From: Pseudacidovorax sp.
GTDB taxonomy: Bacteria; Pseudomonadota; Gammaproteobacteria; Burkholderiales; Burkholderiaceae_C
Assembly (NCBI RefSeq): GCF_017991995.1
Contig: NZ_JAGOPN010000003.1
Location: forward strand, 310,001 to 374,000
DNA length: 64,000 nucleotides
Reading direction: 5' to 3'
The position numbers and the translations under genes are program-made. The notes under the pieces are model-generated. The model had not been told where the DNA came from and did no database searches. It worked only from the letters and a program-made list of their open reading frames with translations. Below, in pieces: positions 39,309-50,065 of the stretch (its first letter is position 1; each line of letters starts with the position of its first letter).

Positions 39309-40121
39309 TCAGGTCCCGAAGCGTGACGAGGCCGTGTCGCCGACCGCCGCCATGCCGCGCAGCACATCCCCCACCACGATGATCGACGGGCTGCCCAGGC
39401 CACTGTGCGCCAGATCGGCGACCAGCGTGCCCAGGGTGGCGACGATCTGCCGTTGCCGCGGCAGGCTGGCATGCTGCACTACCGCCACCGGCGTGGCGGC
39501 CGGCAGGCCGCCGGCCAGTAACTGCTGCTGGATGTGGGCCGCGCCGGCCACGCCCATGTAGATGACCAGCGTCAGCCGCGCGTCGCGGGCCGTGGCGGCC
39601 AGGGCGGCCCAGTCGGTACTGTCGTGGCGCGCGCTGTCGGCCGCGCCGGTCTTGGCATGGCCGGTGACGAACACCACGCCCGCCGCATGGTCGCGGTGGG
39701 TCAGCGGCACGCCCAGTGCCGTCACCGCGGCCAGGCCGGCGGTGATGCCGTTGACCACCTCGCAGGCGATGCCGGCCTCGCGCAGGTGCTCAACCTCTTC
39801 GCCGCCGCGGCCGAAGACGAAGGGATCGCCGCCCTTGAGGCGCACCACGGTCTCGCCTTCCTGCACGGCGGTGATCATCAGCTTCTCGATGAAGGACTGC
39901 GGCGTGCTCTTGCAGCCGCCGCGCTTGCCGACGTGCACGATGCGCGCGTCGGGCCGGGCCCACTGCAGGATCTCGTCGTTGACCAGGTCGTCCACCAGCA
40001 GCACGGTCGCGGCCTGGATGGCCTTCACGGCCTTGAGGGTGAGCAGTTCCGGATCGCCCGGGCCAGCACCGACGAGGGTGCAGCGGCCAAGGGGGCGGGA
40101 GGCGTTCGTGGGCGTGTTCAT
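39309..40121 (-). CDS. cobA: Uroporphyrinogen-III C-methyltransferase
   Basis: 270 residues of the SUMT family (single-domain, not the fused CysG type). It makes precorrin-2 from uroporphyrinogen III with SAM, the entry to sirohaem and B12. Motifs: TLVGAGPGDPELLTLKAVK near 15-33, VRLKGGDPFVFGRGGEE and a VVNGITAGLAAVTALGVPLT stretch. It overlaps ybiB by four bases (ATGA) and ends the nitrate assimilation run, where it can supply sirohaem for nitrite reductase. Confidence 0.95.
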   Translation of the reverse strand: MNTPTNASRPLGRCTLVGAGPGDPELLTLKAVKAIQAATVLLVDDLVNDEILQWARPDARIVHVGKRGGCKSTPQSFIEKLMITAVQEGETVVRLKGGDPFVFGRGGEEVEHLREAGIACEVVNGITAGLAAVTALGVPLTHRDHAAGVVFVTGHAKTGAADSARHDSTDWAALAATARDARLTLVIYMGVAGAAHIQQQLLAGGLPAATPVAVVQHASLPRQRQIVATLGTLVADLAHSGLGSPSIIVVGDVLRGMAAVGDTASSRFGT

Positions 40122-41026
40122 GCGTGGGCGGCCAGCTGGCGGATGTGCGCGACCTGGGCGGCGATCGCATCGGGAAGGGGCAATTCGCCCGCCAGCACGC
40201 GGCGGGTGTAGGCGGCGGTGGCGACGGCGTCGAGTTCGGCCGGCAGGCCGGGGATCTCGGCCAGTGTGCCGGGCTGCTGCGTCTGCAGCGCCTGGCGCTG
40301 GCCGCGCACGAAACCTTCGACGTGCAGGGTGCGGCGCGGATCCACCACCACCTCGCCTTCGAGGCCGCGCGAGAGCATGGCTGTCATGCCCAGCAACTCG
40401 AACAGCTCGGTCATCACCGTGCCGAAGGCGGGATGGGTGTAGCTGCCCACCACCACCGCCGGGCCGGCCACCGGCTGCATCAGCTTGACCACGCTGTGGC
40501 CCGCGTTGCGCAGGCCGACCACGCGGCGCACTTCCAGCAGGCGCTTGAGGCCGCCGTGCAGCAGGCCGGTGTCGACCACGGCGATCTGGCCGGTGTCCAG
40601 CGGCGTCAGCGTCGTCGCTTCGGCATGGCCCAGTTCGGCCAGCACCTCGGCGGCCGTGACCCGGCTGCTTTCGGTGCGGCTGCCGTGCACCAGCACCGGC
40701 AGGCCTTCGCGGGCCAGCAGCAGCGCCAGCAGGGGCGTGAGCACCGGCAAACGGCGCGCGCCGTTGTAGCTGGGTAGCACGACCACCGGACCGGCCAGGC
40801 TCTGCACGCAGGCCAGCCGCGCATGGGTGGCGTCGAGGAAGCCGGCCATCTCCTGCGTGGTCTCGCCCTTGACGCGCATGGCCAGGCAGAACGCACCGAT
40901 CTCCAGGTCGGTGACGCTGCCGTCCAGCACCTGGCCGAAGAGGTCGGCCGCCTGCTCGCGGGCGAGGGGCTTCGCGCCGCGCGCGCCGCGGCCGATTTCC
41001 TTGATGTAGTGCGCAATGCTTCCCAT
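40118..41026 (-). CDS. ybiB: YbiB family protein (TrpD2, anthranilate phosphoribosyltransferase-like)
   Basis: 302 residues. It has the glycosyltransferase family 3 fold (ARGAKPLAREQAADLFGQVL, CLAMRVKGETTQEMAGFLDA, LRNAGHSVVKLMQP) but not the normal TrpD phosphate loop. E. coli YbiB is a nucleic-acid-binding protein without TrpD activity; no trp gene is nearby. It is 47 bases after nasA and overlaps cobA by ATGA. Its steady place in a nitrate operon suggests a link, but the role is unknown. Confidence 0.85.
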   Translation of the reverse strand: MGSIAHYIKEIGRGARGAKPLAREQAADLFGQVLDGSVTDLEIGAFCLAMRVKGETTQEMAGFLDATHARLACVQSLAGPVVVLPSYNGARRLPVLTPLLALLLAREGLPVLVHGSRTESSRVTAAEVLAELGHAEATTLTPLDTGQIAVVDTGLLHGGLKRLLEVRRVVGLRNAGHSVVKLMQPVAGPAVVVGSYTHPAFGTVMTELFELLGMTAMLSRGLEGEVVVDPRRTLHVEGFVRGQRQALQTQQPGTLAEIPGLPAELDAVATAAYTRRVLAGELPLPDAIAAQVAHIRQLAAHA

Positions 41027-41073
41027 GGGTGGCCGGATTGTCCCGCAGCGCTTATGCCGGAATGCGAGGGCGC

Positions 41074-43911
41074 TTATGCCGCCTGGCGATGCAGGCGCAC
41101 CGGCGTCTCGCGCACCATGCGGCGCAGTTCGGGCACGCAGGAGCCGCAGTGGGTGCCGCAGCGCAGCGCCTGTTGCAGGCTGGCCAGGCGCTCGCCCTCG
41201 CTGCCGTCGCAGGCCGCCAGGTGCTCGCCGATGGTCTGCGCCGCCACGCCGAAGCAGTTGCACACGGTCTTGCCGCGCGACACCACCGCTACCGGCGCCG
41301 TCGCCTGGTACGACAGCAGGCGACGGCCGAAGGCCTGAGCCGGCAGCCGGTCCTGGATCAGCGTCTTGAGCCAGCCCTCGGCGCGGGTGTCGCCAGCCAG
41401 CAGCACGGCGCGCACATGGGCGATTTCACCGTCGCGCTGCAGCCGCACGGCGCGGCGGTGGCCGCGGGCCGGGTCGGCGTAGCGCAGGGCCTGACCGTCG
41501 CCCAGGCCGAGCAGGGCCTCGATGCGGTCGACCAGCGCGGCGGGCGGTGGCCTGTCGGCTGCGACGCGCAGCAGCACGCCGCCTTCGCCGCCACCGGCAC
41601 CTTCGTCGCCGAAGGGCACGCAGCTGACAAAGCGCAGGTCGCGCGCCGCCTCGCGCAGCGCCTGCCGCACGGCCAGCGCCCGGTCGGCGGGCAGCCAGGC
41701 GATGCCCAGCAGCGTCCAGGGCAGGGCCGCGCGGCGGATGCGCACGGCCGCGTGCTTGAGTTCGGGCTGCTTGGAGGTGGGGCAGAAGGTGGGCGTCGTC
41801 AGGCCGTTGACGCCGGTCATCTCCCGGCCCTGCGGGTCCCGGCCGCCGAGGAACTCCTCGCCCCAGTGCATCGCGAGGAAGGTCTGCGCCGGCGCCAGCG
41901 TGGCATCGGGCTGCACCGGCAGCACCGCGCTGCCGCGGCGGGAGCTGACCTCGACCAGGTCGCCGGCCGCCAGGCCTTCGCGGGCCATGTCCTGCGGGGC
42001 CATCTGCAGCGCCGGCTCGGCCACATGGCCGAACAGCCGGCCGAGCGTGCCGGTGCGGCTCATGCCGTGCCACTGGTCGCGCAGGCGGCCGGTGTTGAGT
42101 GCATAGGGCCAGTCGGCGTCGCGTGCCTCGGCCAGCGGGCGCCAGGGCTCGGGGCTGAAGCGGGCGCGGCCGTCGGGCGTGGCGAAGACGCCGTCCTGGT
42201 ACAGGCGCGCCGTGCCGGCCGCTTGCCCTTCCGGCATGGGCCACTGCTGCGGGCCGAGTTCGTCCAGCAGGGCGTAGGAAAGGCCGGTGATGTCCAGGTC
42301 GCGGCCACGGGTGGTGGCGCGGTGCTCGTTCCAGACCTGCTCGGGCGTGTCGTAGGCGGTGAGGGCGTGCGTGGCGGGTGCCAGTGCCTGCAGGGCCAGC
42401 CGCGACTGCAGCCGCCGGCCGAAGTCGGCCGCGATGGCCCAGTCGTGGCGCGCCTCGCCGGGCGCCGCGACGGCGGGCCGCACGCGCGAGATGCGCCGCT
42501 CGCTGTTGGTGACCGTGCCGTCCTTCTCGCCCCAGGTGGTGGCGGGCAGCAGCAGGTCGGCGAAGGCAACCGTGGCGGTGGTGGCGAAGGCTTCCTGCAG
42601 CACGACGAATTCGCAGCGCTCCAGCGCCCGACGCACCAGCGCCTGGTCGGGCATGGACTGGGCGGGGTTGGTGCAGGCGATCAACAGCGCGCGCACCCGG
42701 CCTTCGGCGGCGGCACGGAACATCTCGATGGCGCTCAGGCCCGGCGTGGCCGGGATGGTCGGAACGCCCCAGAAGGCGGCCACCTCGGCCCGGTGATCGG
42801 CGTTGGCCATGTCGCGGTGCGCGGGCAGCAGGTTCGACAGGCCGCCCACCTCGCGGCCGCCCATGGCATTGGGCTGGCCGGTCAGCGAGAAGGGGCCGGC
42901 ACCCGGTTGGCCGATCTGGCCCGTGGCAAGGTGCAGATTGATGAGCGCCGCGTTCTTGTCCGTGCCGTGCGAGGACTGGTTCAGTCCCATGCAATACAGG
43001 CTGAGCGTGGGCGCACGGCGCGCCGCATCGCCGGTGCCGCCGGTGGCGAACAGGCGCGCGGCTTCCACGATGTCGGCAATGGGCAGGCCACAGATCTCGC
43101 TCACGCGCTCGGGGGTGCAGTCCTGCACCGTTGCGCGCAGCGCCTCTAAGCCATGGGTGTGGGCGTCGATGAAGGCGGCGTCGGTCCAGCCTTCGCGCAG
43201 CATCACATGCAGCAGGCCGTGGAAGAGCATGACGTCGCTGCCCGGTTGCAGCGCCAGGTGCAGGTCGGCGATCTCGCAGGTGTCGGTGCGGCGCGGGTCG
43301 ACCACCACGATCTTCATGGCCGGGTTGGCGCGCTTCGCTTCTTCGATGCGGCGGAAGAAGATGGGATGCGCCCATGCCGTGTTGCTGCCGGCGATGAACA
43401 GGCAGCCGGCGTCCTTCACGTCGTCGTAGCAGGCAGGCGGAGCGTCGGCGCCCAGTGTCCTCTTGTAGCCGGCCACGGCGCTGCTCATGCACAGGCGCGA
43501 GTTGGTGTCGAGGTTGTTGGTGCCGATGAGGCCCTTGGCCAGCTTGTTGAAGACGTAGTAGTCCTCGGTGAGCAGCTGGCCCGACAGGTAGAAGCCGACG
43601 GCATCCGGGCCGTCCTCGGCGATCACGCGCGCGAAGCGATCGGCGGCGAGGTCCAGCGCCTCGTTCCAGCCGATGGCGTGGGGCGCTTTGCCGCGCGCGG
43701 GTCGCAGCGCCGGTGCCAGCAGCCGCGTCTGCTGCGCGATGGCGGGCGAGGCCGTCAGGTGCAGCGTGCTGCCCTTGGTGCACAGGCGGCCGAAGTTGGC
43801 AGGGTGGGACGGGTCGCCGCGCACGCCGGTGATGCGGTCGCCTTCGGTCTGGATGAGCACACCACAGCCCACGCCGCAGTACGGACAGGTGGAGCGCGTT
43901 TCCTCAGCCAT
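41074..43911 (-). CDS. nasA: Assimilatory nitrate reductase, catalytic subunit
   Basis: 945 residues. It reduces nitrate to nitrite in the cytoplasm. The N-terminus binds a [4Fe-4S] cluster (Cys9, Cys12, Cys16, Cys44), followed by the Mo-bis-MGD domains (YKRTLGADAPPACYDD, DPRRTDTCEIADLH, CMGLNQSSHGTDKN, LTGQPNAMGGREVGG). The C-terminal 50 residues form a BFD-like [2Fe-2S] domain with CNCFG and CGTHCGSCVPEL, which accepts electrons. Its start overlaps the upstream FAD oxidoreductase stop region by eight bases, pointing to coupled production of the electron donor and the reductase. Confidence 0.97.
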   Translation of the reverse strand: MAEETRSTCPYCGVGCGVLIQTEGDRITGVRGDPSHPANFGRLCTKGSTLHLTASPAIAQQTRLLAPALRPARGKAPHAIGWNEALDLAADRFARVIAEDGPDAVGFYLSGQLLTEDYYVFNKLAKGLIGTNNLDTNSRLCMSSAVAGYKRTLGADAPPACYDDVKDAGCLFIAGSNTAWAHPIFFRRIEEAKRANPAMKIVVVDPRRTDTCEIADLHLALQPGSDVMLFHGLLHVMLREGWTDAAFIDAHTHGLEALRATVQDCTPERVSEICGLPIADIVEAARLFATGGTGDAARRAPTLSLYCMGLNQSSHGTDKNAALINLHLATGQIGQPGAGPFSLTGQPNAMGGREVGGLSNLLPAHRDMANADHRAEVAAFWGVPTIPATPGLSAIEMFRAAAEGRVRALLIACTNPAQSMPDQALVRRALERCEFVVLQEAFATTATVAFADLLLPATTWGEKDGTVTNSERRISRVRPAVAAPGEARHDWAIAADFGRRLQSRLALQALAPATHALTAYDTPEQVWNEHRATTRGRDLDITGLSYALLDELGPQQWPMPEGQAAGTARLYQDGVFATPDGRARFSPEPWRPLAEARDADWPYALNTGRLRDQWHGMSRTGTLGRLFGHVAEPALQMAPQDMAREGLAAGDLVEVSSRRGSAVLPVQPDATLAPAQTFLAMHWGEEFLGGRDPQGREMTGVNGLTTPTFCPTSKQPELKHAAVRIRRAALPWTLLGIAWLPADRALAVRQALREAARDLRFVSCVPFGDEGAGGGEGGVLLRVAADRPPPAALVDRIEALLGLGDGQALRYADPARGHRRAVRLQRDGEIAHVRAVLLAGDTRAEGWLKTLIQDRLPAQAFGRRLLSYQATAPVAVVSRGKTVCNCFGVAAQTIGEHLAACDGSEGERLASLQQALRCGTHCGSCVPELRRMVRETPVRLHRQAA

Positions 43912-45121
43912 GCGCCGGCTCCCCGAAGATCAACTGCTCGCGCAACTCCGCCACGCTGCGGCCTTCGCGCAGCAGGTCCAGGTACCAGCCGCCGCCCTCG
44001 GCATCGCCGTAGAGGCAGGCGCCGACCAGCCGCTCGTCCTTGAGCACCAGCTTGCGGTAGACACCGCCTTCGGGGTCGCGCAGCACCAGCATCTCAGTGC
44101 CTTCGCCGCCCATGAAGTCGCCGGCCGACAGCAGTTCGACACCCGTCACTTTGAGCTTGGCCGAGACGGTGCTGCCCTCGTAGCGGCCGATGCCCATCTG
44201 CGCCAGGTGGTTGGCCGCCACGCGGCCCTGCTCGAACAGCGGCGCAACCAGGCCGTAGGCCACGCCGCGGTGCTGGGCGCATTCGCCCACGGCGTAGATG
44301 CGGCCGTCGGTCCCGGTCTGCAGCGTGTCGCTGACCACGATGCCGCGCTCGCAATACAGCCGCATCTGCTGCGCCAGCGCGATGTGCGGCCGGATGCCGA
44401 TGGCCATCACCACCAGGTCCGCGGGCAGCTCGCTGCCGTCCGTGAGGCGCACCGCGCGCACGCGGCCCTGGCCGTCGTCCAGCAGCGCCTCGGTCTGCGC
44501 GCCCAGGCGGAAGTTCAGGCCTTGTTGTGTTTCCAGCGTCTGGCGCAGCAGCGTGGCGGCCTCGGCGTCGAGCTGGCGCTCCATCAGCCACTCGTTGCGG
44601 TGCACCACAGTGACGGCCATGCCGCGACGGGCCAGGCCGCTGGCGGCTTCCAGGCCTAGCACGCCGCCGCCGACGACCACGGCATGGCGGTGCGTGCGGG
44701 CGGCCTCGATCATGGCCTCGGTGTCGGCGATGTCGCGGTGGGCGAGCACGCCGCGCAGGCCGGCGCCCGGCACCGGCAGCACCACGGGCTGCGAGCCGGT
44801 GGCCAGCAGCAGCCGGTCGTAGGCTGCCTCGGTGCCGTCGTCGGCGCGCACGATGCGGCGGGCGCGGTCCACCTGCGTGACGGTGCGGCCCGCATGCAGG
44901 GTGATGCCCTGCTCGCGGTACCAGTCCCAGTCGTTCAGCACGATGTCCTGCAGGCTGCGCTCGCCGGCCAGCACCGGCGACAGCAGGATGCGGTTGTAGT
45001 GCGGATGCGGCTCGGCACCGAACACCGTGATGTCGTAGAGCCCCGGCGCGATGGCCAGCAGCTCCTGCACCGTGCGCATGCCAGCCATGCCGTTGCCGAT
45101 CACCACCAGTTTCTGCCGCAT
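43904..45121 (-). CDS. NAD(P)H-FAD oxidoreductase, nitrate-reductase electron-transfer subunit
   Basis: 405 residues. It resembles the N-terminal half of NirB: FAD motif KLVVIGNGMAGMRTVQELL, NAD(P)H motif HAVVVGGGVLGLEAASGLAR, IYAVGECAQHRGVAYGLV, and the NirB-like YEGSTVSAKLKVTGVELLSA. It stops before the BFD and sirohaem domains of NirB, so it cannot reduce nitrite itself. It most likely passes electrons from NAD(P)H to the [2Fe-2S] tail of NasA, as NasB-type subunits do. It lies 38 bases after nrtD and overlaps nasA. Confidence 0.88.
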   Translation of the reverse strand: MRQKLVVIGNGMAGMRTVQELLAIAPGLYDITVFGAEPHPHYNRILLSPVLAGERSLQDIVLNDWDWYREQGITLHAGRTVTQVDRARRIVRADDGTEAAYDRLLLATGSQPVVLPVPGAGLRGVLAHRDIADTEAMIEAARTHRHAVVVGGGVLGLEAASGLARRGMAVTVVHRNEWLMERQLDAEAATLLRQTLETQQGLNFRLGAQTEALLDDGQGRVRAVRLTDGSELPADLVVMAIGIRPHIALAQQMRLYCERGIVVSDTLQTGTDGRIYAVGECAQHRGVAYGLVAPLFEQGRVAANHLAQMGIGRYEGSTVSAKLKVTGVELLSAGDFMGGEGTEMLVLRDPEGGVYRKLVLKDERLVGACLYGDAEGGGWYLDLLREGRSVAELREQLIFGEPAHG

Positions 45122-45159
45122 CCTTGTCTCCTGCGTGCCGTGTTCCCGCGTGGCCGCCC

Positions 45160-45990
45160 TCAGGCGGCCTGCTTCTCCACGTGGCCTTGCCGGGTGTAGA
45201 GGAAGTCGATCACCGCCTTGCGGTAGTGCACGTAGTCGCGGTCCTCGGCCAGTTCCACGCGATTGCGCGGGCGGGGCAGGTCCACCGCCAGCGCCTCGCC
45301 GATGGTGGCGGCCGGGCCGTTGGTCATCATCACGATCTTGTCGGACAGCAGCACGGCTTCGTCCACGTCGTGCGTGACCATCACCACGGTGCTGTGCGTC
45401 TTCTGCACGATGGCCAGCAGCTCGTCCTGCAGCTTGGCGCGCGTCAGGGCGTCGAGCGCGCCGAAGGGCTCGTCCATCAGCAGCACCTTGGGTTCCATGG
45501 CCAGGGCGCGGGCGATGCCCACGCGTTGCTTCATGCCGCCGGAGATCTCGCCGGGCCGCTTGTGCGTGGCCGCCGTCAGGCCCACCAGCGCGAGGGCATC
45601 GGTGGTGCGCTGGCGCAGCTGGGCCTTGGACTCGGTGCCGCCGAAGACACGCTCCACGCCCAGGTGGATGTTCTCGAAGCAGGTCAGCCAGGGCAGCAGC
45701 GAATGGTTCTGGAACACCACCGCGCGCTCGGGGCCGGGGCCGGCGATCTCCTTGTTGGCGCACAGCAGCGCGCCCTGCGTGGGCCGGGTGAGGCCGGCGA
45801 TGAGGTTCAGCAGCGTGCTCTTGCCGCAGCCGGAGTGGCCGATCAGCGCCACGAACTCGCCCTTGGCCACCGTGAGGTCGATGTTCTGCAGCGCGACGAA
45901 GCGGCCCTTGGGCGTCTTGAAGGCCTGCTCGACGCCCTGGATCTGGATGAACCTGGCATCGGCAGCGGAGGTGGAAACGGCGGTGTTCAC
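45160..45990 (-). CDS. nrtD: Nitrate ABC transporter ATPase
   Basis: 276 residues. Walker A GHSGCGKST, signature ISGGMKQRVGIARAL, Walker B VLLMDEPFGALDALT and H-loop MVTHDVDEAVLLSDK are intact. It lacks the C-terminal sensor domain of cyanobacterial NrtC. The start is GTG at 45990, fixed by a four-base overlap (GTGA) with the nrtB stop. It drives import of nitrate with NrtB and NrtA; sulfonate or taurine importers are close relatives, but the operon context points to nitrate. Confidence 0.93.
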   Translation of the reverse strand: MNTAVSTSAADARFIQIQGVEQAFKTPKGRFVALQNIDLTVAKGEFVALIGHSGCGKSTLLNLIAGLTRPTQGALLCANKEIAGPGPERAVVFQNHSLLPWLTCFENIHLGVERVFGGTESKAQLRQRTTDALALVGLTAATHKRPGEISGGMKQRVGIARALAMEPKVLLMDEPFGALDALTRAKLQDELLAIVQKTHSTVVMVTHDVDEAVLLSDKIVMMTNGPAATIGEALAVDLPRPRNRVELAEDRDYVHYRKAVIDFLYTRQGHVEKQAA

Positions 45991-46922
45991 GACTTGACCT
46001 CTTCGAAGGTGAATGCGGTGGCGAGCTTGACCAGGGCCATCTCCAGCAGCAGGCCCACGATGCCGATCACGAAGATGGCGATGATGATGTTCTTGACGTT
46101 GAGGTTGTTCCACTCGTCCCAGACCCAGAAGCCGATGCCCACGCCGCCCGTCAGCATCTCGGCCGCCACGATCACCAGCCAGGCGGTGCCCACGGCCAGG
46201 CGCACGCCGGTGAGCATGTAGGGCAGCACGGCGGGGAAGAGGATGCGGGTGAGGATCTTCCATTCCGACAGGTCCAGCACGCGGGCCACGTTCATGTAGT
46301 CCTGCGGCACGCGCTGCACGCCCACGGCGGTGTTGATGACCATCGGCCAGATCGAGCAGATGAAGATGGTCCAGATGGCGGCCGGGTTGGCGCCCTTGAA
46401 GACCAGCAGGCCGATGGGCAGCCAGGCCAGCGGCGACACCGGGCGCAGCAGGCTGATCAGCGGGTTGAACATGCGCGCCAGGAACACCGAGCGGCCGACG
46501 GCGAAGCCCGCCGGAATGCCGACCAGCGCCGCCAGGCCGAAGCCCACCGCCACGCGCTGCAGCGAAGCCAGCACGTTCCAGCCCACGCCCTGGTCGTTGG
46601 GGCCGTTGCTGTAGAAGGGGTCGGCGAAGACCTGCACCGCCTGCTTCCAGGTCTCGGCCGGGCCCGGAAAGCTGCCGCCGCTGCGCGCGGCCACCAGCTC
46701 CCACACCAGCAGCAGCAGGCCAAAGCCCAGCAGCGGCGGGACGATGCGCAGCCACAAGCCGCTGAAGTCGCGCGAGGCACGCGCCGCCTTGGCCGGCTGG
46801 GCGGGCGCCGCCGGCACATCGGGCGCAGACACCACGGTCAGCGGCTTGGCCGGCACATGCACGGACGGGGACGGGGCCGCGATGTCGGCCTCGCGCGGAA
46901 GATGGAAGACGGCGGCAACCAT
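45987..46922 (-). CDS. nrtB: Nitrate ABC transporter permease
   Basis: 311 residues: a Pro/Ala-rich cytoplasmic N-terminus of about 50 residues, a membrane helix (WLRIVPPLLGFGLLLLVWEL), then the permease core with five more helices. The conserved loop that contacts the ATPase is VPQDYMNVARVLDLSEWKIL; ISLLRPVSPLAWLPIGLLVF is typical of NrtB. It lies 34 bases after nrtA. NrtB dimers form the channel for nitrate. Confidence 0.94.
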   Translation of the reverse strand: MVAAVFHLPREADIAAPSPSVHVPAKPLTVVSAPDVPAAPAQPAKAARASRDFSGLWLRIVPPLLGFGLLLLVWELVAARSGGSFPGPAETWKQAVQVFADPFYSNGPNDQGVGWNVLASLQRVAVGFGLAALVGIPAGFAVGRSVFLARMFNPLISLLRPVSPLAWLPIGLLVFKGANPAAIWTIFICSIWPMVINTAVGVQRVPQDYMNVARVLDLSEWKILTRILFPAVLPYMLTGVRLAVGTAWLVIVAAEMLTGGVGIGFWVWDEWNNLNVKNIIIAIFVIGIVGLLLEMALVKLATAFTFEEVKS

Positions 46923-46956: not shown

Positions 46957-48204
46957 TCAGGCGCGGACCTTGAACGAATCGGCGTACTTGGCCGGCTCCT
47001 TGCCGTCCCACACCACGCCGTCGATGAGCTTGCTGCTGCGCATCGGGCTGGCGGGCACCGGCGTCTTGGTGGCGGCGGCGGCCTGCTTGTAGATGTCGAT
47101 GCGGTTGATCTCGGTGGCCACCTTCAGGTAGTCCGGATGCTCCTTGAGCAGGCCCCAGCGCTTGTGCTGGGTGAGGAACCACATGCCGTCGGACAGGTAG
47201 GGGAAGTTCACCGCGCCGTCGTTGTAGAACTTCATGTAGTTCGGGTCGTCCCAGGTCTTGCCCAGGCCGTTCTGGTAGCGGCCCAGGATGCGCTGGTTGA
47301 TGGCGTCCACGCTGGTGTTGACGTAGCTCTTCTCGGCGATGGTCTCGGCCATCTTGTTCTTGTTCGAGAGGCCGCCGTCGATCCACTTGCCGGCCTCCAG
47401 GATGGCGGCCGTCACGGCGCGGGCCGTGTTGGGGTACTTCTTGACGAAGTCGGCCGAGGTGCCCAGCACCTTCTCGGGGTGGTCCTTCCAGATGTCCTGC
47501 GTGGTCACGGCGGTGATGCCGATGCCGTCCATGATGGCCCGGTGGCCCCAGGGCTCGCCCACACAGAAGCCGTCCATGTTGCCCACGCGCATGTTGGCCA
47601 CCATCTGCGGCGGCGGCACCACGATGGACTTGGCGTCCTTCATCGGGTTGATGCCGTTGGCCGCCAGCCAGTAGTACAGCCACATGGCATGGGTGCCGGT
47701 GGGGAAGGTCTGGGCGAAGGTGTATTCGCGCTTGTCGGTGGCCATCAGCTTGGCGAGCGAAGCGCCGTCCACCGCGCCCTTGTCGGCCAGCTTTTTCGAC
47801 AGCGTGATGGCCTGGCCGTTGTTGTTGAGGGTCATGAGCACGGCCATGTCCTTCTTGGGGCCGCCGATGCCGAGGTGCACGCCGTAGATCAGGCCGTAGA
47901 GCACGTGGGCGAAGTCCAGATCGCCATTGACCAGCTTGTCGCGCACGCCGGCCCAACTGGCTTCCTTGCTGGGGACGATCTTCACGCCGTACTTCTTGTC
48001 GATGCCCAGCACCGAGGCCATGACGACGCTCGCGCAATCGGTCAGCGGGATGAAGCCGATCTTGACCTCCTCCTTCTCGGGTTTGTCAGAGCCCTGGGCC
48101 CAGACGCAGGCGCGCAGGGCAGGATCGATGGTCAGGGCGCTGGCAGCGGCGGCCTGCAGCACGCGGCGGCGGCTCAGCGGGGCGGGGCGGTTGGCGTCGG
48201 TCAT
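46957..48204 (-). CDS. nrtA: Nitrate-binding protein (NrtA/CmpA family), Tat-exported
   Basis: 415 residues. The N-terminus carries a twin-arginine motif (SRRRVLQAAAASALT), so the folded protein is exported by Tat to the periplasm. The binding domain shows VKIGFIPLTDCASVVMASVL, GIDKKYG, and NMDGFCVGEPWGHRAI typical of NrtA. It delivers nitrate to NrtB. ATG 48204 has a GGAG ribosome site seven bases upstream and lies 36 bases after the terminator stem of the proposed antitermination leader. Confidence 0.95.
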   Translation of the reverse strand: MTDANRPAPLSRRRVLQAAAASALTIDPALRACVWAQGSDKPEKEEVKIGFIPLTDCASVVMASVLGIDKKYGVKIVPSKEASWAGVRDKLVNGDLDFAHVLYGLIYGVHLGIGGPKKDMAVLMTLNNNGQAITLSKKLADKGAVDGASLAKLMATDKREYTFAQTFPTGTHAMWLYYWLAANGINPMKDAKSIVVPPPQMVANMRVGNMDGFCVGEPWGHRAIMDGIGITAVTTQDIWKDHPEKVLGTSADFVKKYPNTARAVTAAILEAGKWIDGGLSNKNKMAETIAEKSYVNTSVDAINQRILGRYQNGLGKTWDDPNYMKFYNDGAVNFPYLSDGMWFLTQHKRWGLLKEHPDYLKVATEINRIDIYKQAAAATKTPVPASPMRSSKLIDGVVWDGKEPAKYADSFKVRA

Positions 48205-48239
48205 GGGCAGACTCCGGGGCAAGAAGGGCAGCGAAGGGG

Positions 48240-48319
48240 AAAAACAAAAAGGCGTCCTCGCCGCGCCGGGCCCATCGCATGCGGTGCATGCCATGGAGCC
48301 AGCGGGAGAGGACGCCTTT
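48240..48319 (-). terminator. Attenuator terminator in the nrt leader
   Basis: A 12-bp perfect stem (48319-48308 with 48259-48248; AAAGGCGTCCTC and its complement) around a long loop that can fold further (GCATGC inverted repeat at 48277-48291), followed on the minus strand by TTGTTTTT. It would stop transcripts before nrtA. Its left arm overlaps the loop and 3' strand of the second ANTAR-type hairpin, so the two folds exclude each other. Confidence 0.82.
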
Positions 48320-48354
48320 GTCCTGTGTCCGGCCTGCCTTGCCCGCCTTTGGGC
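48309..48354 (-). promoter_or_regulatory. ANTAR (NasR) antiterminator: two hexaloop hairpins
   Basis: Hairpin 1 (48354-48341) is GCCC-AAAGGC-GGGC; hairpin 2 (48324-48309) is AGGAC-AAAGGC-GTCCT. Both show the same six-base loop, with A at position 1 and G at position 4 as in known ANTAR targets, 16 bases apart. Binding by NasR would hold hairpin 2 and prevent the terminator. The remaining leader (48205-48240) carries the ribosome site. Confidence 0.82.
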
Positions 48355-48396
48355 GCCGCCTGCCGGACGACCGTTTCCGGTCTGTGGTCAGGACTA

Positions 48397-48412
48397 TGCA
48401 AGCGGTGTGCCA
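48397..48412 (-). promoter_or_regulatory. Sigma-54 promoter of the nitrate operon
   Basis: TGGCAC-N5-TTGCA on the minus strand, GG at 48411-48410 and GC at 48399-48398. It predicts a start near 48386, giving a leader of about 180 bases that begins just before the antiterminator hairpins. Sigma-54 promoters also drive the Klebsiella nasF operon. Confidence 0.8.
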
Positions 48413-48513
48413 GGATGGGCTGATGGGCGGTCCAAGGTGGCTTCGTCAGAGGGAGAAGGGCCGGACAGGGCTTGCCGAGCCCACTGCTGCAGGCGTCCCC
48501 GGGCGACCGTCAT

Positions 48514-48528
48514 GCGCCACGGACGTGC
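48514..48528. promoter_or_regulatory. Possible NtrC-type enhancer site
   Basis: GCGCCACGGACGTGC keeps the outer GC...GC and 9 of 15 positions of the E. coli glnA NtrC site, about 130 bases upstream of the predicted start. A second inverted repeat, GCACCA-N10-TGGTGC (48547-48568), has perfect NtrC half-sites but abnormal spacing. The rest of 48413-48623 shows nothing else I can name. Confidence 0.35.
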
Positions 48529-48623
48529 GCCGCGGATTGCTGCTGTGCACCAAAAGCAGCTGTGGTGCGGGCGTCAGCGCCGGTTCTGTGTCAACCTGGG
48601 GCGCGGCTGCGCAGGGGCCCGGC

Positions 48624-49883
48624 TCAGCGCGGGGCGCTGCCGCCCAGCGGCAGGAAGTCGGCCATGGCCAGCACCGACTCCGCCACATCCACCAGGCGGC
48701 GGTTCTGGTTCATGGCGGTCTGGCGCAGCATCTTGTGCGCCTCTTCCTCGCTGAGCTGGCGGTGGGCCATCAGCAGGCCCTTGGCGCGCTCGACCACCTT
48801 GCGCTCGTTGAGCGAGGCGCGCACGGTCTGCAGTTCGTCGTTCATGGCCTGCAGGCGGCGCGACTGCTCCTGCACCATCTGCAGCACCGAACGCTCGAGG
48901 TTGCGGCCGTAGCCGGCTGCGGGCGCCTCGGCGGTCTCGCCGGCGGCGTCGGCGAAGAAGTCGCCCGGTGTCACCGCCTCGGCTTGCAGCGCCTCGTAGC
49001 GTTGCAGTTCGGCGCGGGCTTGTTCGATCTTGCGGCCGCAGAGGGCGCGCAGTCCGCGGGCCAGCCCGTCCTCGATGGCCTGCATGGCGTCGATGCGGCG
49101 GGTGCAGCCCTCGAACCACTGTGGGCTCAGGTTGGCGTCGAGCACCGTGCCGGCGGGCGAGGTGCAGCCGATGCGGCGCAGCCGCTCCAGTTCGGCCAGG
49201 TGGGCCGGCGCCTGGCTGGCCTGCCATTGGGCACGCAGCGCCTCGTCGCCGAACTCGCAGAACAGGCCGAAGCAGCGCTCCTGCGATTCGATGAGGTGCA
49301 GCCACTGTTGGCGCTGGGCATCGTCGTTGCCGCCGCGCAGGAAGGCGGCGGCGCCGAAGGCACGCTCCTGGCCGGCGAATTCCTTGCCCTGCATGAAATT
49401 GAACATGGCGACCAGCCAGCGGGAGATGTCCGGGTCGGTGGCGCCATCGGCTGCTTCGAAGACCACGGCCAGCAGGCCGGCGATCAGCTTCACGAAGGCG
49501 GCGGTGGCCAGGTCGGGCCCCAGCGCCAGCGCTTCGACGCGCGCGCGCAGGGTAGGCAGGGCGTCCAGCCCCTGCAGCACATAGGCCACGCGGGGAAACA
49601 GCCGGGCGCCGCCGGCCAGGCGCCGGGGATCGTCCACCAGGGGATCCAGGGCGGCACGCACCTGCTGCTCCTTCGCCAGGCAGTCGGCCACCTGTGCGGA
49701 CCGCTCGGCGGCGAAGCGCTGGCCGCCGGACCCCAGGAAGACGTTGGTGATGCCGCGTTCGCGCTGCAGTGCATGCACCAGCAGGCCGAGCGTGCCCACC
49801 ATTTCGCTGGTGCGGGCGAGCTGGTCGAGCTCGTCGATCTCGCAATGGCGGGCAGCGATCAGGAAGCCAAGGCTGGTCGTCAT
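48624..49883 (-). CDS. nasR: Nitrate/nitrite-responsive antiterminator NasR
   Basis: 419 residues. An N-terminal NIT sensor domain (about 30-290, with [19 protein letters not shown]) binds nitrate or nitrite; a C-terminal ANTAR RNA-binding domain (about 350-410) shows [20 protein letters not shown] and [20 protein letters not shown]. In Klebsiella, NasR relieves termination in the nasF leader when nitrate is present. The gene lies just upstream of the nrt leader on the same strand. ATG 49883 starts the conserved part. Confidence 0.94.
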
Positions 49884-50065
49884 GGGCAGGGGCAGTCGGA
49901 ATGTGTGGCACGCGCAAGGGGGCGAGAGCATGCCGCAAATTCCATGCCCCTCGGCCGGAGGTGGCACGTTTTCTTGCCTGTCACGAACGCACCGGCCGCC
50001 GACGGCCCGCAAGGGCAAGCCCAGCACCGCCTGCCCGGCCGCAGGCCGCCGCCTACACTGCCGCG

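Follow-up and report, generated by a model that had tools for sequence, protein, structure and literature searches.

The nasR-nrtA locus

The window, which is the whole 64,000-nucleotide stretch of DNA analysed here (Pseudacidovorax sp., contig NZ_JAGOPN010000003.1, positions 310,001–374,000), contains a gene for a NIT-ANTAR protein (nasR), a nitrate transport and assimilation operon beginning with nrtA, and between them a candidate leader with several hairpins (Table 1). The NIT and ANTAR domains of NasR both score above the curated cut-offs, and the protein, which is the sole ANTAR match in the 6.24-Mb genome, matches the solved Klebsiella NasR (4akk) over 400 residues with E 4.2e-49. The arginine-containing motifs of NIT domains have a role in nitrate binding, and those of the window protein (ERG, GQER and LRR) align with 4akk. 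The nasR reading frame opens at GTG, well ahead of the point at which the alignment starts in most relatives, and because most relatives align only from residues 30–55 the true start is probably internal, at Met33 or Met49.

The initial annotation of this DNA had named the neighbouring gene as nasR and placed a switch before an nrt-nas operon: the domain matches and the 4akk homology agree with the former, and the downstream genes from nrtA to cobA fit the latter. Within the operon, the NCBIfam models closest to the nasA-like protein are those for formate dehydrogenase and for NasA/NasC, none of which it matches above cut-off, and the protein with the PF02885 domain is presumably YbiB-like. 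A full-length siroheme nitrite reductase is absent from the operon, the nitrite/sulfite reductase domains (PF01077, three matches) lying on another contig. The Klebsiella operon has the order nasFEDCBA, which the window operon resembles apart from this reductase.

Table 1. Features of the nasR-nrtA locus and the downstream operon, in window coordinates.
Feature	Position	Strand	Details
nasR, NIT + ANTAR protein	48624..50027	minus	PF08376 E 2.9e-55; PF03861 E 1.2e-20
NtrC-like inverted repeat (weak)	48513..48529	minus	3 mismatches; ~118 bases upstream of promoter
sigma-54 (-24/-12) promoter TGGCACACCGCTTGCA	48397..48412	minus	0 mismatches to consensus
H1, 5' hairpin	48369..48382	minus	GACCG-GAAA-CGGTC, GNRA tetraloop; from fold
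H2, long hairpin	48327..48368	minus	inner stem 48341-48354 + outer helix GTCCGGC/GCCGGAC; from fold, arm swap, covariation
Inner H2 stem (first hairpin, P1)	GCCC 48354-48351; loop AAAGGC 48350-48345; GGGC 48344-48341	minus	from sequence
H3 (P2) hairpin	AGGAC 48324-48320; loop AAAGGC 48319-48314; GTCCT 48313-48309	minus	overlaps terminator
Terminator 5' arm AAAGGCGTCCTC	48319-48308	minus	perfect complement of 3' arm
Terminator 3' arm GAGGACGCCTTT	48259-48248	minus	perfect complement of 5' arm
Intrinsic terminator hairpin	48248..48319	minus	outer 12 bp perfect; 5' arm = P2 loop + right arm
U-rich tail TTGTTTTT	48240..48247	minus	directly after terminator 3' arm
nrtA (nasF-like), nitrate ABC transporter substrate-binding protein	46957..48204	minus	PF13379 E 1.7e-102
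nrtB, permease	45987..46922	minus	TIGR01183 above cut-off
nrtC-like ATPase	45160..45990	minus	PF00005 E 1.2e-35; start not fixed
FAD/NAD(P)H oxidoreductase like NirB N-terminal half (nasC-like)	43904..45160	minus	TIGR02374 positions 1-396/794, below cut-off; start not fixed
Assimilatory nitrate reductase catalytic subunit (nasA-like), molybdopterin	41074..43911	minus	PF00384, PF01568, PF04879
Protein with glycosyltransferase-3 N-terminal domain	40118..41029	minus	PF02885 E 3.9e-15
cobA, uroporphyrinogen-III C-methyltransferase (sirohaem)	39309..40121	minus	TIGR01469 above cut-off

The consensus of sigma-54 promoters is TGGCAC-N5-TTGCA, and the spacing from the -12 element of the window promoter would place the transcription start near 48386, just ahead of the hairpins. 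A sigma-54-like site (0–3 mismatches) was found between nasR and the terminator hairpin in all 30 nasR loci that we compared (see below), taking the best site within 500 bases with a preference for sites having P2 downstream; the distance from the promoter GC to the P1 loop was 46–48 bases in four of these loci and 23–28 bases in the other 26. The NtrC-like repeat of the window is not significant alone, with approximately 19% of shuffled upstream stretches equalling or beating its match; in related promoters, matches with at most two mismatches occur upstream of 45 of 108, compared to 2.6% of shuffles. Since this sigma-54 promoter, which is absent from the initial annotation, precedes the leader, we infer a two-condition gate: nitrogen limitation and nitrate.

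Alternative folds of the leader

Two AAAGGC hairpins, of which the second overlaps a perfect 12-bp terminator stem, had been described in the initial annotation, and both the coordinates of the hairpins on the minus strand and the overlap proved exact. The position of the terminator before nrtA also held, with the spacing requiring correction: the nrtA ATG (48204-48202) follows 35 rather than 36 bases after the U-rich tail. Bases 48319-48309 are common to H3 and the terminator, i.e. the second hairpin and the intrinsic terminator are mutually exclusive. RNA folding, which had been proposed together with the annotation as a check, returned both alternatives as minimum free energy folds: 48400-48230 folds into the terminator state (-100.2 kcal/mol, z -7.6, 0/200 shuffles equal), and 48386-48309, without the 3' arm, folds into three hairpins that make up 78% of the ensemble (-42.2 kcal/mol, z -6.6, 0/200 shuffles). 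As modelled, the terminator fold and the three-hairpin fold are the two states required of an antitermination switch.

Both hexaloops carry A at position 1 and G at position 4 (A1/G4) and are closed by a C:G pair (C-AAAGGC-G). The linker between the two hairpins is 16 nt when measured between the minimal stems and shrinks to 2 nt once the outer helix of H2 is paired, and the window leader has the short linker of ANTAR leaders, which is 5–12 nt in the Enterococcus faecalis eut system and for which the excerpts of PMC8164766 accept 2–25 nt.

Conservation and covariation in nasR loci

NasR relatives were identified at E up to 1e-30 in 52 of 200 family genomes, and we examined the 30 loci with the best nasR matches, the window's own among them. 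Promoter, P1, P2 and terminator are all kept in the 30 loci: each has the P2 core GGACAA(A/C)GGCGTCC as well as a first A1/G4 hexaloop with a C:G closing pair (A1/G4 and C:G being search criteria), and the P1 stem reaches at least three contiguous pairs in 29. The initial annotation had named the loss of the two loops and the overlapping terminator from related genomes as one result that would speak against a switch; in these 30 best loci they are retained throughout.

Pair counts taken from an alignment anchored on P1 (A2) revealed covariation in both alternative structures of the 30 leaders. For the P1/P2 structure we counted 55 two-sided changes versus 20.3 +/- 4.4 in shuffles, with 80.2% of cells paired versus 31–52% when slid; for the terminator there were 43 two-sided changes versus 10.1 +/- 2.7 in shuffles, with 96.0% of cells paired. 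Position 3 of the P2 loop and its partner in the terminator 3' arm, which change together, are C:G in 24 leaders, A:U in four and unpaired in two: the terminator draws on the same loop strand that NasR is predicted to hold. Four pairs, the inner ones of P2, are invariant across the 30 leaders, and therefore covariation cannot separate P2 from the terminator.

In 20 further stretches around distant or fragmentary NasR matches (L278-L297), the covariance model described below matched 16 and did not find the leader in L290-L293. Several of the 16 have U:G closing pairs or less regular loops, unlike the window form. U:G takes the place of C:G in both hairpins of L280, L284 and L287, which lie beside divergent NasR genes, and the P2 hairpins of L281-L283 and L285 are likewise U:G-closed; here the protein and its two binding sites may have changed together. 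A separate variant is a P2 loop that starts with G (GAAGGC, GACGGC or GATGGC; L106, L107, L109, L256, L269 and L275), where the A1 rule seems to be broken in the loop overlapping the terminator, and five of these six leaders have two A1/G4 hairpins upstream.

Distribution of the leader and of ANTAR proteins

A covariance-model search over relatives had likewise been suggested with the initial annotation. Using a model built from 30 relatives, window leader included, we obtained the window leader with E 1.4e-12 in its own genome, the next of nine matches (up to E 10) having E 0.05, and found copies in 118 of 200 family genomes. The E 0.05 match was rejected as a second leader, as it sits within a 354-aa reading frame, and the remaining matches up to E 10 are weaker. 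The leader had no match in the plasmid collection. The short P2 pattern with two mismatches was uninformative in the own genome (145 and 96 matches versus 216 and 226 in the reversed control).

An ANTAR match is present in 117 of the 118 leader genomes, compared to 43 of 82 genomes without the leader (in Fisher tests that ignore kinship), and 51 of the 52 NasR genomes have the leader somewhere, G033 being the exception. At the limit used, 67 leader genomes are without a NasR match. We also took the stretches around 40 additional leaders from genomes in which NasR gave no match at this limit: 37 of them contain an ANTAR-like gene, and an approximate similarity criterion classed three of these genes as NIT-type. 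Many relatives have, next to the same leader, an ANTAR protein that lacks a NIT match, and hence the sensor cannot be told from the leader by itself. One leader (L115, G027:C175:6242-6346, E 2.5e-11) lies in a 99%-complete genome, G027, with no ANTAR match.

Extra leader copies stand before nirB, nirD, narK, nasA, a formate/nitrite transporter gene and one gene for a HAMP-domain protein, these names being taken from similarity or from reading of the translation. In the last case (L105, G052:C101, 1586-1680, minus strand), a leader with E 4.3e-10 and a perfect sigma-54 site is followed by a HAMP-domain membrane protein, possibly a receptor or chemoreceptor, in which HAMP was the only domain found, as the contig end cuts the gene. 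Six genomes (G022, G085, G190, G194, G167 and G187) have three to four leader matches and only one or two ANTAR matches each; one ANTAR regulator may serve several operons in such genomes.

A scan of genome contigs for P2 plus terminator gave at least 120 stretches, at least 93 of them from Betaproteobacteria, with the other listed stretches mainly from Gammaproteobacteria and some from Alphaproteobacteria, Spirochaetia, Clostridia or unplaced. In L130, L148, L159, L185, L187 and L193, from Clostridia and Spirochaetia, the identical P2-terminator pattern precedes what appear from the translations to be parts of glutamate/asparagine synthase genes, in agreement with the ANTAR regulons described in the excerpts of PMC3369931.

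Comparison with known leaders

In Klebsiella, the operon adjoining nasR opens with a transporter gene. The initial annotation had likened the window arrangement to Klebsiella nasF, and the likeness is borne out for K. oxytoca as far as the excerpts of the published accounts extend: a NIT-ANTAR regulator, two A1/G4 hexaloop hairpins and an overlap of the second with the terminator. The window may differ by its GNRA-capped third hairpin and by its long H2 with a 2-nt linker. According to the excerpts of PMC3369931 and PMC7496416, EutV needs A1/G4 hexaloops in paired hairpins and NasR selects the same motif, and nasF read-through in vitro rises from 5% to 52% with nitrate. The E. faecalis eut/EutV system, again from excerpts, shares the dual hexaloop hairpins and antitermination by terminator occlusion, whilst it differs in having a two-component regulator and linkers of 5–12 nt.

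No Rfam family matched the window at gathering score. Below it, P11 (RF00625) gave E 0.003 and 23.0 bits (gathering 70) with a match spanning the whole P11 model, and narK RNA (RF03032) gave E 0.009 and 24.4 bits (gathering 43.2); both alignments take in the sigma-54 site. By the Rfam rule the window leader is outside these families, which nevertheless seem to represent elements of its kind. Of 274 genomes sampled across the class, only one passed the gathering score for P11 and only two did so for narK RNA. The P11 locus (L298, 126 bits) resembles the window in having a sigma-54-like site, a P2 core (GGACAAAGGCGTCC) and a terminator, its first hexaloop being weak (three pairs); the narK RNA loci (L308, 55 bits; L309, 44 bits) have a sigma-54-like site, two A1/G4 hexaloop hairpins and a terminator. 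The narK RNA differs from the window leader in its compactness, with loops 22 bases apart and no H1. From these sequences, both P11 and narK RNA appear to be ANTAR leaders, with promoter DNA taken into their models as though it were transcribed. We take P11 to be the Pseudomonas NalA. NalA is described in the excerpts of PMC12830290 as a nirBD leader that is antiterminated by NasT, an ANTAR protein that the nitrate sensor NasS retains, and in this regulator it differs from the window with its NIT-ANTAR sensor. We found no statement of narK RNA as an ANTAR leader in the literature searched, the coverage of which was limited, so that its absence carries little weight.

A third hairpin ahead of the pair

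The folds place the first hairpin of the initial annotation at the tip of a longer predicted stem (H2) with a conserved outer helix, and a third hairpin (H1) precedes the pair. The outer H2 arms have a mean energy of -10.27 kcal/mol with their own partner, compared to -6.03 +/- 0.21 with swapped partners (n = 107 leaders). In order to count hairpins, we used a family set and a named set of leaders, a segment of the named set occurring in 8 of 120 family-set leaders. Left out were 7 of 127 leaders without a P1 assignment (L103, L280-L285; mostly with a GGAT, U:G-closed P2 outside the C:G rule) and those without a sigma-54-like site within two mismatches, which kept 114 of 120 family-set and 85 of 120 named-set leaders; the automatic P1 assignment sometimes took H1 for H2.

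Two A1/G4 hexaloop hairpins precede P2 in 25 of the 114 family-set leaders (shuffle mean 0.01) and in 30 of the 85 named-set leaders (none in shuffles). Measured from the promoter GC, the two hairpins fall at +17 to +22 and +44 to +50 in 19/25 and 24/30 of these leaders, respectively, with P2 usually near +77. When 113 leaders were pooled (P2 at +66 to +86 only; family set also limited to P2 loops AAAGGC or AAAGAC), the H1 loops comprised 50 A1/G4 hexaloops, 15 GNRA tetraloops (window included), 8 G1/G4 hexaloops and 40 of other types. One more closing pair could turn 27 of the 50 A1/G4 hexaloops into tetraloops, for which reason we reduce the claim for H1 to the 21 of 113 leaders that are strict triples with H2 present; the 38 H1 hexaloops unable to close further comprise 23 with A1/G4 and 15 without. 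Since A1/G4 was among the criteria used to locate H2, the H2 loop counts are no test. The link between the loop type of H1 and the type of regulator had p 0.029, a value uncorrected for kinship and not relied on.

In the window, the hairpin approximately 19–20 bases after the promoter GC has a GAAA tetraloop and no A1/G4 hexaloop. The linkers of the 30 nasR leaders have a summed energy of -117.5 versus -48.9 +/- 8.1 in shuffles and mostly form a small hairpin without the signature. Taking this linker hairpin together with the position of the first hexaloop, 23–28 bases from the promoter GC in 26 of 30, many nasR leaders seem to keep H1 and H3, where the window keeps H2 and H3, with homology across the classes judged from position only. 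We tentatively suggest, as a generalisation that is possible although rather less than probable, that the ANTAR leader of the family is a three-hairpin element (at +19/20, +47 and +77 from the promoter GC) with up to three ANTAR loops and a long H2, of which lineages keep different pairs: H1 and H3 beside many NasR genes, H2 and H3 in the window, and all three elsewhere. If this is true, ANTAR dimers can choose among hairpin pairs, which would allow graded or ordered antitermination instead of one two-site clamp. In the literature searched we recognised no account of three-hairpin ANTAR leaders or of ANTAR control in the host's family, limited coverage making this a weak absence: the kind of switch is already known, and the third hairpin is a recurring feature for which we found no description.

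Proposed mechanism and alternatives

The sequence-level predictions of a NasR-type antitermination switch, as proposed in the initial annotation, are borne out by the NIT-ANTAR neighbour, the hexaloops, their overlap with the terminator, the conservation in 30 of 30 loci and the covariation of both structures. Very probably, then, the leader is an ANTAR transcription-attenuation element that controls the nrtABC-nas-cobA operon, with a sigma-54 start and NasR-dependent read-through on nitrate. On this model, sigma-54 RNA polymerase, probably activated by NtrC under nitrogen limitation, would start near 48386, and the nascent RNA would first fold into H1, the long H2 and the short H3. With the hairpins unheld, the 3' arm would capture the H3 loop and right arm in the 12-bp terminator and transcription would stop before nrtA; with nitrate or nitrite on the NIT domain, an ANTAR dimer would grip the A1/G4 hexaloops of H2 and H3, and H3, held closed, would preclude the terminator so that the operon could be transcribed. 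Initiation by sigma-54 and NtrC, binding by NasR, the nitrate trigger and read-through are all deduced here from sequence.

A plain intrinsic terminator belonging to nasR, with two hexaloops that arose by chance, would fit the position of the hairpin, which has the orientation of nasR and lies approximately 300 bases past its stop codon, and its strength by fold. In 30 of 30 loci, nevertheless, a sigma-54-like site separates the hairpin from nasR, both alternative structures covary and the leader is also found ahead of nirB, narK and other genes, which makes this reading hardly credible. We regard it as equally improbable that the terminated leader is chiefly a trans-acting small RNA: the thought arises from the below-threshold P11 match and the Rfam name of P11, 'Pseudomonas sRNA', whereas the P11 locus has the sigma-54-like site, P2 core and terminator of a leader, and conservation is concentrated in the cis switch. 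If P11 is NalA, as assumed above, the description of NalA as a nirBD leader antiterminated by NasT, in the account excerpted from PMC12830290, also speaks against it.

A different pairing, in which the ANTAR dimer uses H1 and H3 and the long H2 is a spacer, would suit the placement of the first hexaloop in the 26 nasR leaders, the tendency of their linker to P2 to form a small hairpin, and the A1/G4 loop of H1 in many relatives. Against this, H1 of the window is a GAAA tetraloop without A1/G4, and H2 keeps AAAGGC; for the window we therefore hold this pairing to be very unlikely, and grip of H2 and H3 remains the preferred reading.

The natural two- and three-loop leaders lend themselves directly to testing which hairpins an ANTAR dimer has to grip and what spacing between them it tolerates, and P11 and narK RNA are indicated to be ANTAR leaders. 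For the family, a large environmental one, our findings place nitrate assimilation behind an inferred double gate of sigma-54 and ANTAR control in many of its genomes, and provide one RNA signature by which the regulon can be found.
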